Source of the DNA: Flavobacteriales bacterium
Lineage (GTDB): Bacteria; Bacteroidota; Bacteroidia; Flavobacteriales_G; Salibacteraceae
Length of the DNA: 64,000 nt
Direction: 5' to 3'
NCBI GenBank assembly: GCA_013204105.1
Contig: JABMOM010000032.1
Span: forward strand, 1 to 64,000
Positions 12,562 to 19,589 of this stretch are shown piece after piece (position 1 is the stretch's first letter; each line of letters opens with the position of its first letter). A program made the position numbers and the translations under genes. The notes below the pieces were generated by a model. It had not been told where the DNA came from, did no database searches, and was given only the letters and a program-made list of their open reading frames with translations.

Positions 12562-13296
12562 ATGCTACGAAGTACCATCTTGATACTGATCATTTTACTC
12601 ACATTTCAACCCATCCAAGCACAAACTCAGCTCGGATGGATGCCGCTTCCGGCAGAATCCTCTGTCACCAACGGAGCTACCAATGGAATGTGGTTTACTT
12701 CCCCTGCAGACATTACCATCAAGGCGTTAAAGGTGCCGGATGACTCAATGAATCCTTGGAATCCTCAGAGTATTGCAGTGCTTAAGTTCACCGGAAGCGG
12801 TGCGTCAGGTAGTCCAGCCACCAATTACACGGTTCTATTTCTGGTTCAAGACACCTCTGCTGGGGACTCCATTCCGTGTGACATTCCGATCAGCGATGGA
12901 GACCACATCGGCATACTTGGCTCTCGATGGGATGCTAGCAGCAACGTTGGGCAATGCTCTAATGCTGGTTCAGGAGGATACTCAACAACGATCAACGGCT
13001 ACTCAACGCCTCTCTACAAACTACAGGCGAATTCTCCGTTGAACAACCAAGCTCCAAGCAACGTCTCATGCCCAGCACTTCAGCTGCTATTACACGCGTT
13101 GAGGTTTACTTTGAAGGATGCGAATTACCCTATCCGGATGGGGTCGATGTTTCGAACCTTCTATGCTACGGAGATACTAACGGGGCTGTTTCTGCCTCGG
13201 TTTCCGGTGGACTCGGACCGTACGTTATGGAATGGTCGAACGGAGATTCCAACGTTACTAGCATCACAAATCTCGGGGCCGGAAATTATACGGTGA
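12562..13296 (+). CDS. N-terminal fragment of a frameshifted type IX-secreted SprB-repeat protein
   Basis: The frame starts with a signal peptide (MLRSTILILIILLTFQPIQAQ) and a ~165-residue beta-rich domain (WFTSPADITIKALKVPDD..QSIAVLKFTG..GDHIGILGSRWDASS). Coding sense ends near 13065; the rest to 13296 is out-of-frame reading. The true continuation is the overlapping frame beginning at 13068 (PSTSAAITRVEVYFEGCELPYP). A one-base loss around 13063-13070 explains the break. No slippery heptamer is visible, so programmed frameshifting is unlikely. Alone, this fragment would be exported by Sec but lacks the sorting domain. Confidence 0.72.
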   Translation: MLRSTILILIILLTFQPIQAQTQLGWMPLPAESSVTNGATNGMWFTSPADITIKALKVPDDSMNPWNPQSIAVLKFTGSGASGSPATNYTVLFLVQDTSAGDSIPCDIPISDGDHIGILGSRWDASSNVGQCSNAGSGGYSTTINGYSTPLYKLQANSPLNNQAPSNVSCPALQLLLHALRFTLKDANYPIRMGSMFRTFYATEILTGLFLPRFPVDSDRTLWNGRTEIPTLLASQISGPEIIR

Positions 13297-14273
13297 CGAT
13301 CACCGATTCCACTGGCTGTAAGTATGATACTACCGTATCCATCACCCAACCCGACAGCTTGTATTCCACAAGTTCATTTTTGGAACCATTGTGCTTTGGC
13401 GATGCCAACGGAAGCGTTACGGCTTCTGCATTTGGAGGCATACCCCCATTCAGTTTCTCGTGGAGCAATGGTGGGACATCAGCGGCGATTTCGAACGTGC
13501 TCGCCGGGCAATATACACTGACGCTGACCGACTCCAATGGATGCGAATCCATTGCTTCATACGACCTCGATCAACCAAGCCTGCTCACCGTGGTCACTGA
13601 TACGGTGGTTAACAATGCATGCCCTGAAAGTGAGCTGGGTCAGATATGGACCAATATCCAGGGAGGGGTTGGTCCTTTTACCTCTGTTTGGGATGACCCC
13701 GCGACTACATCGGGGACCGTCGTATTTAATTTAGCTTCTGGCACCTACAACCTATCCGTTACGGACTTTAATGAGTGCACTGCGTCTTATACAGAATCGA
13801 TTGTTGCCCTGCATCAAAATCCAACGTTCGATCTTGGACCCAGTCAAGAGCTTCCTCAAGCGGGAGTGCTTACGATCAATGGTCCTGTAGGGATGACCGA
13901 CTACTTTTGGTCTACGGGAAGTACGAATGACTTTATTTTTGTGGTTACTCCAGGACTCTATTGGCTGCATGTGACTGATTCCAACACTTGCACCGCTTCT
14001 GACAGCATCGAAGTCGTGCCGTTCACGCCTGCGGGAATCAATGCAACCACCGAGCGGCAATTCGAGGTATTTCCATCTCCTTCTTCTGGTCAGGTACAAC
14101 TCCAAAGCGTCGAGGGAAAAGGTGACTTGGTCATACACGACCTCTTCGGAAGTGTCGTATTCAAACAGCAGATTGTTGCGCCAAAGACCATGTTAGACCT
14201 AAGCGCCCTGATTTCTGGTCGTTACACCCTTCATCTCAATGGTGAGGTAGCGCCCATATTAATCATCCATTAA
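13068..14273 (+). CDS. C-terminal fragment of the frameshifted protein: SprB repeats and type IX sorting domain
   Basis: A 401-residue frame without its own signal peptide. It holds repeated ~70-residue SprB-type units: LLCYGDTNGAVSASVSGG..YTVTITDSTGC, LCFGDANGSVTASAFGG..YTLTLTDSNGC, and a third degenerate unit ending YNLSVTDFNEC. The last ~85 residues form a type A type IX sorting domain (FEVFPSPSSGQVQL..LFGSVVFKQQ..LISGRYTLHL). Joined to the fragment upstream it would encode a ~570-residue cell-surface protein related in repeat type to the gliding adhesin SprB. As sequenced, it cannot be exported, so the locus is a probable pseudogene unless the frameshift is a sequence error. Confidence 0.72.
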   Translation: MPSTSAAITRVEVYFEGCELPYPDGVDVSNLLCYGDTNGAVSASVSGGLGPYVMEWSNGDSNVTSITNLGAGNYTVTITDSTGCKYDTTVSITQPDSLYSTSSFLEPLCFGDANGSVTASAFGGIPPFSFSWSNGGTSAAISNVLAGQYTLTLTDSNGCESIASYDLDQPSLLTVVTDTVVNNACPESELGQIWTNIQGGVGPFTSVWDDPATTSGTVVFNLASGTYNLSVTDFNECTASYTESIVALHQNPTFDLGPSQELPQAGVLTINGPVGMTDYFWSTGSTNDFIFVVTPGLYWLHVTDSNTCTASDSIEVVPFTPAGINATTERQFEVFPSPSSGQVQLQSVEGKGDLVIHDLFGSVVFKQQIVAPKTMLDLSALISGRYTLHLNGEVAPILIIH

Positions 14274-14331: not shown

Positions 14332-15951
14332 CTAAACATACATCGCCTCGCGCTGCTCCTGAATCTTGGCGCTTTCGATGTAGTCGTCATAACTCATCAT
14401 CTTGTCAATGCAACCCGTTGGGGTCAATTCTACGATGCGCGTTGCGGTGGTGTCGGTGAAGGTGTGGTCATGTGAGGTGAATATGACCGTACCAGGGAAG
14501 TTGATCAAGGCGTTGTTGAAGGCCGTGATCGACTCGAGATCGAGGTGGTTGGTGGGCTCATCGAGGATCAAGAGGTTGGCTCCTTTGATCATGATACGGG
14601 AAAGCATGCACCGCACCTTTTCTCCTCCAGAAAGCACGTTTGACTTCTTCTTAATATCATCACCGCTGAAGAGCATTTTGCCAAGAAATCCGCGTACATC
14701 TACATCGTCCATTCCTGCTGGTGAATATTGACGCAGCCAATCCAGTAGTTCGAGCTTGTTGTCAAAGTATTGCTCGTTGTTTACCGGGAGGTAACCCCAA
14801 GTGATGGTCTGTCCGTACTTAAATGTTCCGGAAGTGGCCTGTAGCTCTCCAGCCAAAATGCGAAACAATGCAGTCATGGACTGGCTGTTGCGCCCGATCA
14901 CGGCAACTTTATCTCCTTTGTTGACGGTGAGCTCAAGGTCCTTGAAGAAGGTTTCTCCGTCTTCGCTGACGTAGCTCAAACCATCGATGTTGAGGATGTC
15001 GTTTCCAGCTTCACGCTCCTGTTGGAAGATGATGCCTGGGTACTTACGGCTAGAAGGCTGAATGTCATCTATGTTGATGCGTTCGAGCAATTTCTTCCGA
15101 CTGGTCGCTTGACGGGCCTTGGATTTGTTGGCGCTGAATCGCTGGACGAATTCTGTTAATTCAGCTCGCTTGGCTTCGATTTTCTTGTTCTGCTGGGCTT
15201 GCTGGCGGAGCGCTAGTTGACTGGACTCATACCAGAAGGTGTAGCTACCGGTAAAGAGTTTGATCTTTCCGTAATCCAAGTCGGCGATATGGGTACACAC
15301 CGTATCGAGGAAGTGACGGTCGTGGGAAACGACGATCACGGTATTCTTAAAATCGAGGAGGAAGTCTTCTAACCAGGTCACCGTTTCGATGTCCAGGTCG
15401 TTGGTTGGTTCGTCGAGGATGAGGATGTCAGGATTGCCGAAAATGGCTTGTGCGAGCAACACACGTACCTTTTCGTTGCCATTCATGTCCTTCATCAATT
15501 TCGAGTGGTCGGATTCTTTGATGTGCAGTCCGCTCAGCATGGCTGCGGCATCTGATTCAGCATTCCAACCGTCCATTTCTGCAAACTCCTCTTCGAGTTC
15601 AGAAGCTCGGATGCCGTCGGCATCCGAAAAGTCCGTTTTGGCGTAGATCTCATCTTTCTCTTGCATGACTTCGAAGAGGCGTTGATGACCTCTGAGTACC
15701 GTTTCTAATACAGGTACTTCATCGAATTGGAAGTGGTTCTGATTGAGCGCAGCCATGCGCTTGCCGGGTTCGATGGCAATGTGCCCGGTATTCGGTTCGA
15801 TCTCTCCTGAAAGGATCTTGAGGAAGGTTGATTTGCCGGCTCCGTTGGCGCCAATCACACCGTAGCAATTCCCTTCGGTGAAGTTAGCGTTTACCTCATC
15901 AAAGAGTTTCTGTTTTCCGAAAGCGAGGGATACATTATTGGCTGCGATCAT
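14332..15951 (-). CDS. ABC-F ATPase, YbiT/YkpA-like
   Basis: A 539-residue soluble twin-ATPase of the ABC-F family, which acts on ribosomes rather than in transport. NBD1 has Walker A GANGAGKST (near 35), the divergent signature MNGNEKVRVLLAQ and Walker B LILDEPTNDLD. The linker (residues ~240-310, QQAQQNKKIEAKRAEL..) is the P-site tRNA-interaction motif. NBD2 has a degenerate Walker A, GRNSQSMTALF, lacking the catalytic Lys, but a normal LSGGEKVR signature and Walker B LLILDEPTNHLD. Loss of the second P-loop Lys is common in the YbiT-like subgroup, to my knowledge. It is a single-gene unit. Confidence 0.9.
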   Translation of the reverse strand: MIAANNVSLAFGKQKLFDEVNANFTEGNCYGVIGANGAGKSTFLKILSGEIEPNTGHIAIEPGKRMAALNQNHFQFDEVPVLETVLRGHQRLFEVMQEKDEIYAKTDFSDADGIRASELEEEFAEMDGWNAESDAAAMLSGLHIKESDHSKLMKDMNGNEKVRVLLAQAIFGNPDILILDEPTNDLDIETVTWLEDFLLDFKNTVIVVSHDRHFLDTVCTHIADLDYGKIKLFTGSYTFWYESSQLALRQQAQQNKKIEAKRAELTEFVQRFSANKSKARQATSRKKLLERINIDDIQPSSRKYPGIIFQQEREAGNDILNIDGLSYVSEDGETFFKDLELTVNKGDKVAVIGRNSQSMTALFRILAGELQATSGTFKYGQTITWGYLPVNNEQYFDNKLELLDWLRQYSPAGMDDVDVRGFLGKMLFSGDDIKKKSNVLSGGEKVRCMLSRIMIKGANLLILDEPTNHLDLESITAFNNALINFPGTVIFTSHDHTFTDTTATRIVELTPTGCIDKMMSYDDYIESAKIQEQREAMYV

Positions 15952-16123: not shown

Positions 16124-17092
16124 ATGAAACACAATTACTTATTGCTCTCTTCTTTCATCCTTGTCATAGGAGGAATCATCTTAACATCGAATGCAAATGG
16201 GCCTGCTTCAAACGGAAACAGAGCTACAAATGCCCCTGGAGATGGTGCCACAAAGTGTACCTCATGTCATACGGGTGGATCCTTTGGGGATGTGAGCATC
16301 GATCTCACGGTAAACGACGGTAACGGTGCGGAGGTAAGCGAATACGCCCCAGACGAAGTCTATTCGGTCAGTGTTAATGTATCGAGTTCAATGGGGACGC
16401 CTTCCGGTCATGGTTTCCAGGCTATCGCGCTTGAGGATGCCGGCGATACGCCACTCAATGGCTTCAGCAATGCTGGTAGCGGCGTGCAATTCTCAGTTTC
16501 CAGTTCAAGGCAGTATGCCGAGCATTCTGGACCAAGTGCTTCAGGTGCTTTTGCGTTCGATTGGACGGCCCCCTCTGCTGGTACGGGAAGCGTTACCTTT
16601 TATATGGGAGCGAACGCAGTGAATGTAAATGGTAGCAATGGAGGAGATAACGCTGTACTCTTTGAAGTCAGTTTCGCTGAAATGGCGGACACCAATGATA
16701 CCAACTCTAACCAGCCACCTGCAGGAATCTTTGCGATTTCAGCTCAAGAGGCGGCGATCCAAGTATTTCCCAACCCGGTTCAGGGCATTGTTCAGTTGAA
16801 GGGTTTAGCCAGCAACCAAATCGTGGAAGTATATTCCATTAAAGGAGAATGGATACTTAGCGAAAAGGTCATGGCAAATACAATGGATCTATCGAGTCTA
16901 CAATCCGGTGTCTACATCCTTCGATCGGAAGGAAAGAAATACAAATACGCTGCCTTCAAACGGAAACTTCTAGAGATCTATGAGCACCCCATGGATCAAC
17001 AAAAGGAGGCACTATACAATACGATTCTGGATTGGATGGGAACCGACCACGAGCAGATCGATGACATCTGCATCGTCGCGGTCAGGATTTGA
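16124..17092 (+). CDS. Chimeric ORF: choice-of-anchor V / type IX cargo fused to a PP2C (SpoIIE) tail
   Basis: A 322-residue frame. ATG 16124 gives a signal peptide; a start at 16088 would prepend 12 charged residues. Residues ~20-190 match the choice-of-anchor V pattern, with CTSCHTGGS (CxxCH) near 44 and GFQAIAL / SGAFAFDWTAPSAGTGSVTFYMGANAVN. Residues ~215-270 are a type IX sorting domain (IQVFPNPVQGIVQLKG..LQSGVYILRSEGK). The last ~53 residues (FKRKLLEIYEHPMDQQKEAL, then DWMGTDHEQIDDICIVAVRI) instead resemble the C-terminal end of SpoIIE-family PP2C phosphatases, where 'W.GD.EQ.DD..V.G..I' closes the fold. The switch lies around 16928-16948 (EGKKYKY), a motif plausible in both parents. 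PorU cleavage before the sorting domain would remove the tail. Confidence 0.75.
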   Translation: MKHNYLLLSSFILVIGGIILTSNANGPASNGNRATNAPGDGATKCTSCHTGGSFGDVSIDLTVNDGNGAEVSEYAPDEVYSVSVNVSSSMGTPSGHGFQAIALEDAGDTPLNGFSNAGSGVQFSVSSSRQYAEHSGPSASGAFAFDWTAPSAGTGSVTFYMGANAVNVNGSNGGDNAVLFEVSFAEMADTNDTNSNQPPAGIFAISAQEAAIQVFPNPVQGIVQLKGLASNQIVEVYSIKGEWILSEKVMANTMDLSSLQSGVYILRSEGKKYKYAAFKRKLLEIYEHPMDQQKEALYNTILDWMGTDHEQIDDICIVAVRI

Positions 17093-18010
17093 TCAGCGGC
17101 AGTATGCCTTGATGATTTCATAGGCTTCAAACTTCCCTAATTCTCCGGCTTTGCTCAGTGCCGGACACGCATCTTCCTTTTGACCGAGCTTGTAGTGGGA
17201 TATTCCTTTGTAGTAGAAAGCTTCGGCGTCTGATGCGTCGCGCTCGATCACGTGATCCATGTCTTCGATGCAATTTGCATAACGCTTTAGATTGTAGGCC
17301 GATATTGCGCGGTTATAGTAAGCATCCGTAAAGTTGGGTTTTAACTCAATGGCTGCAGTAAAATCATCGATCGAACCGAGGTAATCCCCTAGCATTGCCT
17401 TGAGTTTACCTCTCTCCTTGTGCGCCAATATATGCTTATCATACATTGTAATGCATTGATTCAAATCCGCCATCGCGTGTTCATAGTCGCGCATAGAGAG
17501 ATAGGTTTTACCCCGGAGGTATAGCGCATCAACATCCATAGGATTTAATTGCACAACCTTGCTCAAATCGTCCTTAGCACCGCGATAATTTTCTTGCTGG
17601 AGGTAAACCAAGGCTCGGTTATAGAAGGCATCCGAGTAATTGGGTTGGATTTGAATGGCCGCATTGAAATCAGTCAAGGCTTGCGTGTGCAATCCCCGTA
17701 AGGCGCTGATCTTTCCTCGTTCCTTATAGGCCTCAAAATAACGCGGACCAATGGCAATAGCCTTTGAGAGATCGATGTGCGCTTCAGAATAGGATTCCAG
17801 GCGTGCGCGGGCCATACCCCGATAGAAAAAGGCCATGCTGTCTTTGTCTGACTTTTCAATCAGTTGATCCAAATAGACGATACAGCCTTGATAATCTTGC
17901 AGCTCAAATGCGGCGATGCCATCAACGAGTAATTGCTTCTTGGATTGCGCAAATGAAGGTGCAGTGAGAAGGATTAGGAGAAAGCTTATTATGGATCGCC
18001 ATCTGCTCAT
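17093..18010 (-). CDS. Secreted TPR-repeat protein
   Basis: A 305-residue exported protein: signal peptide (MSRWRSIISFLLILLTAPSFAQ) followed by about seven tetratricopeptide repeats (for example AFFYRGMARARLESYSEAHI, AFYNRALVYLQQENYRGAKD, ALYLRGKTYLSMRDYEHAMA, AYYNRAISAYNLKRYANCIE). It is expected to be a periplasmic protein-interaction scaffold. Its ATG overlaps the stop of the anti-sigma gene (ATGA), so it belongs to the sigma/anti-sigma operon. Its stop codon directly abuts the stop of the convergent chimeric ORF with no spacer. Confidence 0.87.
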   Translation of the reverse strand: MSRWRSIISFLLILLTAPSFAQSKKQLLVDGIAAFELQDYQGCIVYLDQLIEKSDKDSMAFFYRGMARARLESYSEAHIDLSKAIAIGPRYFEAYKERGKISALRGLHTQALTDFNAAIQIQPNYSDAFYNRALVYLQQENYRGAKDDLSKVVQLNPMDVDALYLRGKTYLSMRDYEHAMADLNQCITMYDKHILAHKERGKLKAMLGDYLGSIDDFTAAIELKPNFTDAYYNRAISAYNLKRYANCIEDMDHVIERDASDAEAFYYKGISHYKLGQKEDACPALSKAGELGKFEAYEIIKAYCR

Positions 18011-19017
18011 TGGTCAAAACTCACGGTGATCACGGCCCGTTCTTTTCGATCGGCAGCATTCCACTTGGGGCCTTCTTCTACCAACCGAATGGCCTCTGCA
18101 TCGCATGCGGTGCAAAGCGAGTTTGCAACGTTGATGTCTTTTGGACTTCCATTGCGGTCAAACTCAAAGCTCAACACTACACTTCCGCGTGGCATTCCTG
18201 GCGAGCGCTGCAAGTTGTTTTTCAGGTACTTGTTGTACGCATCCATCCCACCCTCGGGTAGCGGAGGAGGCGGTGTTTCTGAGGCTTTTGATTTTTTCAT
18301 TGGCGCATTGGCGCTGTAATCTATTGACTCTGCTTGAACGGCTAAGGATCGCTCAACCCTCTGCGCTGTTTTCTCCATGACAACGAAATCTGATGCTTCA
18401 TTCGCAGCAATATCAGCCACGCTATCAGTTTGGACGCCATTACCAGCGCTCGTAAATGCAATTGATTCCGGCTGTGAAGAATCCGAGGTCTTTAGGTCCT
18501 CTTCCATATCGGCTTCTGCTTCAATGCGTTGATAAGCCACCGCATCGGGCGGAGAAGGAAGCGTTGATTCCTCTTGGATAGGGTTTGTGATAAGTGCCTC
18601 GTCTTTGACGAATGAATCGGCCACTACATATGCTGGCTCTCCTTCCATTGCTTTAAATGAAGGTTGGGCGGAACGTGGAGCGTAGTTGTTTTCCTCAATC
18701 GTTGCCGTATCGATCTCCTCATTTTGGCCACCTAGGATCGCAAATACAGCGGTTCCAGCAACGATGATTAGGCCTATGGCAGCTGCTTGCCAAGTAAAGA
18801 TGAGCCCCCTTCTATTTGATCGCTCATCCAGTCGGTCATCCAACTCGTCCAAGGCCTGTTGGATCTCTGAAGTTAGCATGTCCTCGTATCCTTCCATGGC
18901 CTCATACAGAAAAGCGTCGCGCTCCATTTCACGCTCAAAGCGGTAGGCTTCATCGACGCTCTTGCGGCGCATGAAGTAGCTTTTAATGCGTTTTAATATG
19001 TCGCTTTCGTGCTTCAT
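18007..19017 (-). CDS. Anti-sigma factor with periplasmic TonB-like C-terminal domain
   Basis: A 336-residue single-pass membrane protein. Residues 1-70 are a charged cytoplasmic helical part (DILKRIKSYFMRRKSVDEAYRFEREMERDAF..), the kind seen in Bacteroidota anti-sigma proteins. One TM helix lies near 72-95 (FTWQAAAIGLIIVAGTAVFAIL). A long Pro/Glu/Ser-rich periplasmic linker leads to a C-terminal TonB_C-like domain (YNKYLKNNLQRSPGMPRGSVVLSFEFDRNGSPKDINV..ALRLVEEGPKW-like core). It overlaps the sigma-factor stop (ATGA) and the TPR start (ATGA). It probably holds the cognate sigma factor at the membrane and senses an envelope signal through its periplasmic domain; this is inference from layout. 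Confidence 0.8.
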   Translation of the reverse strand: MKHESDILKRIKSYFMRRKSVDEAYRFEREMERDAFLYEAMEGYEDMLTSEIQQALDELDDRLDERSNRRGLIFTWQAAAIGLIIVAGTAVFAILGGQNEEIDTATIEENNYAPRSAQPSFKAMEGEPAYVVADSFVKDEALITNPIQEESTLPSPPDAVAYQRIEAEADMEEDLKTSDSSQPESIAFTSAGNGVQTDSVADIAANEASDFVVMEKTAQRVERSLAVQAESIDYSANAPMKKSKASETPPPPLPEGGMDAYNKYLKNNLQRSPGMPRGSVVLSFEFDRNGSPKDINVANSLCTACDAEAIRLVEEGPKWNAADRKERAVITVSFDQ

Positions 19018-19589
19018 TGTCCTTCCTCTATGCAGACCTTTAAATTGCGTTTGCCGTTTTGGATGTGGCTTTTCACAGCGTTCAATGTGACCTTTAATTC
19101 ACGACTTATTTCCGAGTAGCTCTTCTTTTTCAAGTAGAACAAGTGCACACAATCCTTCTGCAGTTCTTTTAATTTTTTCAGGCATTTTTTAAGGAGTTCT
19201 TCTTGCATTTCCTGATCATCTGTATCAATAGGATGCATTTCCAATGCGTTTTCCATATCGGCATCCGAAATATCTATGTCGAGCATCTTTTCCCCTCGTT
19301 GCTTCATCAAACAATGATTCTTGGAAACCACATACATAAAGGCCTTGAAGTTTTTTACATCTCTTTCGGATTGATACTGCATCAGTTTCTCGAAGATCTC
19401 CATCGTGCTGTCTTGGGCCGCGTGCTTTTCTCGTTGGAACTTCATACACACACCAAAGACCAATGCCATGTACTTCCGAAAAAGCAGGGCCATGATCTCC
19501 TTGTCCTTATTATCGGTGTACGCGCGAAAGAGGTCTTCATCACTGCGTTGAGGCGCGTTAGCGATGTCTATGATGGTGGTCTCTACCAA
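19014..19589 (-). CDS. RNA polymerase sigma-70 family (ECF) sigma factor
   Basis: A 191-residue ECF-type sigma factor. Region 2 (LFRKYMALVFGVCMKFQREKHAAQDSTMEIFEKLMQY..FKAFMYVVSKNHCLMK) binds core RNA polymerase and the -10; region 4 (KELQKDCVHLFYLKKKSYSEISRELKVTLNAVKSHIQNGKRNLK) is the helix-turn-helix for the -35. An in-frame stop at 19596-19598 blocks extension upstream, and the first usable start is TTG at 19589, with GTG next; either gives the usual length. The ATGA overlap with the anti-sigma gene indicates coupled expression, the classic arrangement for a cognate pair. Confidence 0.9.
   Translation of the reverse strand: MVETTIIDIANAPQRSDEDLFRAYTDNKDKEIMALLFRKYMALVFGVCMKFQREKHAAQDSTMEIFEKLMQYQSERDVKNFKAFMYVVSKNHCLMKQRGEKMLDIDISDADMENALEMHPIDTDDQEMQEELLKKCLKKLKELQKDCVHLFYLKKKSYSEISRELKVTLNAVKSHIQNGKRNLKVCIEEGQ

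Follow-up and report, generated by a model that had tools for sequence, protein, structure and literature searches.

The window, as we call the whole 64,000-nucleotide stretch of DNA that was analyzed, contains at positions 16124–17092 an open reading frame coding for 322 amino acids, whose coordinates, frame, and stop codon were all checked. To the left lies a gene for an ABC-F ATPase on the reverse strand (14332–15951), which is the syntenic border of the locus in our gene map. To the right a gene for a TPR protein (17093–18010, reverse strand) converges on the open reading frame with the two stop codons abutting, and its ATG overlaps the stop codon of a gene for a TonB_C-domain membrane protein (ATGA). 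According to the gene map and profile searches this TonB gene (18007–19017, reverse strand) forms the right border of a deletion-prone locus and shares an operon with the gene of a sigma-70-type factor (19014–19589, reverse strand). A cargo-like gene adjoining the locus at 12562–14273 is read in two overlapping frames owing to a difference of one base near 13066. Its counterpart in the sister species G009 codes for a single protein of 570 amino acids, and the split is either a sequence error or a young pseudogene.

An earlier note on this DNA had described the open reading frame as a T9SS cargo protein carrying the end of a SpoIIE/PP2C phosphatase. Separate profile searches with the head and the tail matched choice_anch_V and Por_Secre_tail on the one side and SpoIIE on the other, and confirmed that the reading frame is a genuine chimera of these two parents. 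As delimited by the profile matches and the comparison with G009, the head (residues 1–271; 16124–16936, forward strand) is composed of a signal peptide, the motif CTSCH, a choice-of-anchor V domain, and a T9SS type A sorting domain from which the last strand is missing. The NCBIfam profile choice_anch_V (NF041895) matches residues 25–178 with E = 5.6e-22. Residues 214–274 are matched by Por_Secre_tail (PF18962, E = 6.5e-10, 39.6 bits with a cut-off of 27) and by TIGR04183 (E = 6.7e-8, 32.4 bits with a cut-off of 23), that is, above the cut-off of both profiles as is required of a T9SS type A sorting domain. The orthologue in G009 is 82% identical to the chimera over residues 1–275 and terminates in SEGKVGRFIKL directly before its stop codon. 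A normal cargo end is also present in G005, G001, G007, G003, G011, and further relatives. A search of the literature on the function of choice-of-anchor V yielded nothing useful.

The tail (16931–17092, forward strand) comprises the last 53 residues together with the phosphatase's own stop codon and was identified by tblastn, by an end motif, and by a tail HMM; the reading frame of the phosphatase is preserved and the tail includes the motif EQIDD. The Pfam SpoIIE profile gives a weak score (E = 0.033), because just 38 of its 192 positions (154–191) remain. We built a tail HMM from 24 SpoIIE C-termini of the genus, and across the six-frame translation of the window its sole significant match is the tail of the chimera (E = 3e-20; next best 0.95). 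With a motif of the last 10 residues the tail scored 22.6 bits; across 43,376 stop-terminated segments, with recognizable SpoIIE ends set aside, no unrelated end scored higher than 11.2 bits. SpoIIE genes of the same genome are up to 48% identical to the tail (tblastn, E = 3e-14). We rejected a recent copy of one of these phosphatases as the source of the tail, since this is the best identity found and the similarity on the DNA level is limited to short words.

No further phosphatase was found within the window and all 14 SpoIIE genes of the genome are located on other contigs, which agrees with the earlier statement that nothing else of a phosphatase is nearby. Had the cargo proteins of relatives carried the same tail, this would have counted against a fusion; none of them does so in 60 genomes. 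At the tail we found no terminator-like site which could explain its retention, and the literature on Bacteroidota SpoIIE sensors gave nothing useful. As side observations, six SpoIIE phosphatase genes stand in tandem on one strand elsewhere in the window genome (G000:C17:42858-54689; L002, L005–L008, L011), members of the genus have between 2 and 14 SpoIIE genes, and two short open frames with SpoIIE-like ends (L165 in G002:C97 and L166 in G038:C62) are probable phosphatase remnants.

The junction can be placed precisely. The DNA of the G009 orthologue resembles that of the window up to and including GAAGGAAAG (to position 16936) with no match beyond, and the similarity to phosphatase tails begins at GKK (from position 16931). 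The crossover thus falls inside the 6 bp GGAAAG (16931–16936, forward strand) common to the cargo end and to the GK of the phosphatase tails. As G009 retains the old cargo end, the fusion must be younger than the split between the window genome (G000) and G009. It had been suggested that a deletion through short homology at EGKKYKY produced the joint. The common 6 bp support the short homology; a simple fall-out of DNA between two neighbors does not hold, and the event belongs to the many deletions that affected an island of genes.

This island became apparent from a gene map of the locus in 13 genomes. In G005, G006, and G015, the last belonging to another genus, the locus is intact, and the cargo gene and the TonB–sigma operon are separated by an efflux-type island. 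Reading rightward, the cargo gene is followed by genes for a TetR protein, a LolA-like protein, two FtsX proteins, an ABC ATPase, and a barrel-like protein of 392 amino acids, and these face the TonB and sigma genes on the opposite strand. Most members of the genus have lost the island or retain it in an eroded form, with differing end points. In G004 the FtsX genes and most of the ATPase gene are gone. In G007, G011, G012, and G002 the 3′ side of the cargo gene is joined to the barrel-like gene at approximately residue 314, 206, 207, and 255, respectively. In G008 and G003 the entire island is missing, and G003 has gained a small gene pair. These two genes at the site of the lost island (L072:5693-6277) code for 120 and 72 amino acids and by eye resemble a DUF5615/DUF433 toxin–antitoxin pair. 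Neither the LolA-like nor the barrel-like gene occurs elsewhere in the genomes of G000 and G009. Their loss from these two genomes, together with the intact island in G005, G006, and G015, shows that the intervening DNA was removed and not inserted, and on the tree the pattern of island loss requires several separate deletions.

The TPR gene with its ATG overlapping the TonB stop codon was found by a family-wide search and a contig scan only in G000, in G001, and, as a remnant of 149 residues, in G009. The nearest full-length relative of the TPR protein of the window is that of G001 (49%). In G009 the TPR remnant, which is the product of this genome's own deletion, stands next to a normal cargo end. 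By eye, a more distant TPR protein in G044 (34%) has neither a phosphatase nor the TonB gene as neighbor. An intact phosphatase gene beside the TPR gene, which we had looked for in relatives as the earlier note proposed, was found in none of them by the family-wide search and contig scan.

A second chimera is present in G001 (L065:4935-5324). Here approximately the first 125 residues of the LolA-like protein (LolA_like, E = 7.2e-16) continue in frame into the final ~10 residues of a SpoIIE phosphatase. The join is located at GATGAC, the phosphatase end DDICFVGIKV scores 25.5 bits with the end motif, and the stop codon of the chimera abuts that of the TPR gene just as in G000, where zero bases separate the SpoIIE end and the TPR stop codon. 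This fusion is a second and independent chimera. It follows that the island and the phosphatase end were formerly arranged as we propose for the ancestral locus, and that G000 and G001 lost the intervening stretch by separate deletions. G005, the sister of G000 and G009 in the tree, has the intact island without TPR gene or phosphatase end. Its state implies two gains, an exchange between species, or a replacement in G005, all of which are possible.

We strongly favor the explanation that the open reading frame is a deletion-born fusion, most likely a drifting by-product of island loss. In the G000 lineage, once it had separated from that of G009, a single deletion or several would have removed the last cargo codons with the stop codon, the island (unless it was already gone), and the front of a phosphatase gene or of its remnant. 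The ends would have met in the common GGAAAG such that the cargo gene now reads in frame into the phosphatase tail. That an assembler instead joined two unrelated places of the genome appears extremely improbable. The window genome was indeed assembled in 46 contigs and the one-base frameshift near 13066 may be a sequence error; however, a join via a repeat can be rejected, as the DNA at the junction occurs only once in the genome and has no repeat which could have misled the assembler, and in the separately assembled genomes the two halves of the arrangement recur, namely the direct contact of phosphatase end and TPR stop codon in G001 and the cargo gene beside the TPR gene in G009. Of the phosphatase donor the 3′ end, directly next to the TPR stop codon, is all that is seen at this site, namely in G000 and G001, and we infer its former intact state. 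In a variant of the favored explanation, to which we give somewhat less than an even chance, there was never a whole phosphatase gene at this site: a fragment of a convergent phosphatase gene would have come in together with the TPR gene from the donor site of the latter, and the cargo gene would have been fused to this fragment by a subsequent deletion. In most relatives without the TPR gene the stop codons of the barrel-like and TonB genes are only a few bases apart, which marks the TPR gene with the phosphatase end as an insertion, and an intact pair of phosphatase and TPR genes was not found. Taken alone, however, this variant leaves the differing remnant lengths of 53 and ~10 residues unexplained, and deletions on the left side are still needed in both species.

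Under the favored explanation the tail would have neither phosphatase activity nor a known added function. It does not hold the whole catalytic domain of a SpoIIE/PP2C phosphatase and, as judged from this coverage and from general knowledge of the PPM fold, it cannot act as one. We consider a function of the fusion unlikely, and the proposal that selection maintains the tail as a substitute for the terminal strand of the sorting domain (CTD) or as the source of a new property of the cargo seems very unlikely to us. Fusions in frame exist in G000 and, with another partner, in G001, and an edge strand from KKYKY is in principle possible. Two in-frame joins to a phosphatase tail have a probability of about 1/9 by chance, which could hint at selection. 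On the other hand, the fusion is shared by no relative, and AlphaFold, with the G009 model as control, does not form this strand. In G009 the sorting domain is complete with its last strand at 271–277 (the GRFIKL region), and in the chimera this strand is replaced by coil and two helices. Both models used the same alignment rows; since the phosphatase rows among them may favor the helices, this comparison and the pLDDT values (79–89 in the CTD blocks 211–278 of G009, 51–79 in residues 211–280 of the chimera) are supporting evidence only. Replacing the end of the CTD is also inactivating in Porphyromonas gingivalis, where PorU no longer functioned once the six residues at the end of its CTD had been exchanged, and where RgpB shortened by its two final residues remains in the periplasm (PMC11285876).

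The same results bear on the earlier expectation that the cargo could still be displayed, with PorU trimming the tail along with the CTD. The genome encodes the T9SS translocon (SprA, 2469 bits), and a C-terminal extension of the CTD is tolerated in PorU, PorZ, and PPAD (PMC11285876). The chimera, however, lacks the intact C-terminal CTD strand (motif C-t.) of a T9SS type A cargo, a strand known to be essential: the strand containing GRFIKL in G009 is replaced and not merely extended. As the end of the CTD is both replaced and extended, export is more likely lost than kept; by this reasoning and by the models T9SS export is probably impaired, and continued display with trimming by PorU is doubtful and in our view unlikely. 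Still more improbable, as a whole, is the broader proposal that the region between the cargo and TonB genes is a place where deletion repeatedly makes in-frame chimeras ending in the phosphatase 3′ end (at least two, with different partners) and that in the window species the tail is kept as the working C-terminus of a secreted protein.

To sum up, the locus very probably represents a well-resolved natural deletion which fused two unrelated genes in an uncultured marine lineage of the Flavobacteriales, at a site where related species repeatedly lose genes. The relatives show the intact locus, several alternative deletion end points, and a second chimera with the same downstream parent. The fusion also allows a natural test of the ability of a T9SS sorting domain to function with its last strand replaced. 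Taken by itself, it most likely arose as a side product of the loss of genes and leaves general views as they are.

Compared with known systems, residues 1–271 resemble NF041895 proteins with a T9SS type A sorting domain, from which the open reading frame differs by having lost the last CTD strand and the stop codon and by having gained a foreign extension of 51 residues. The last 53 residues resemble the Bacteroidota SpoIIE/PP2C (PPM) phosphatases (PF07228), including the Reg_prop–Y_Y_Y–SpoIIE protein L073:158-3334, but are without some 80% of the catalytic domain. Deletion-born fusions have been described across bacteria, for example acrR–glcD in the Mycobacterium tuberculosis complex and narX, and two fusions of this complex have lost catalytic motifs and are not apparently immediately functional (Kaul, Rossine, Brinda, Baym 2026; PMC12803068). 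The open reading frame fits this description apart from its second parent, which was not found in an intact form: as in these cases the start of one open reading frame is joined to the end of another, the interval is deleted, relatives show the split state, and catalytic motifs are lost. Unlike them, our fusion is deduced across the species of an uncultured genus and not within one deeply sampled species, its second parent is known by the tail alone, and its partners are a T9SS cargo protein and a SpoIIE phosphatase. The first parent, the cargo gene, exists as a complete gene of its own in relatives, and the tree places this state ahead of the fusion.
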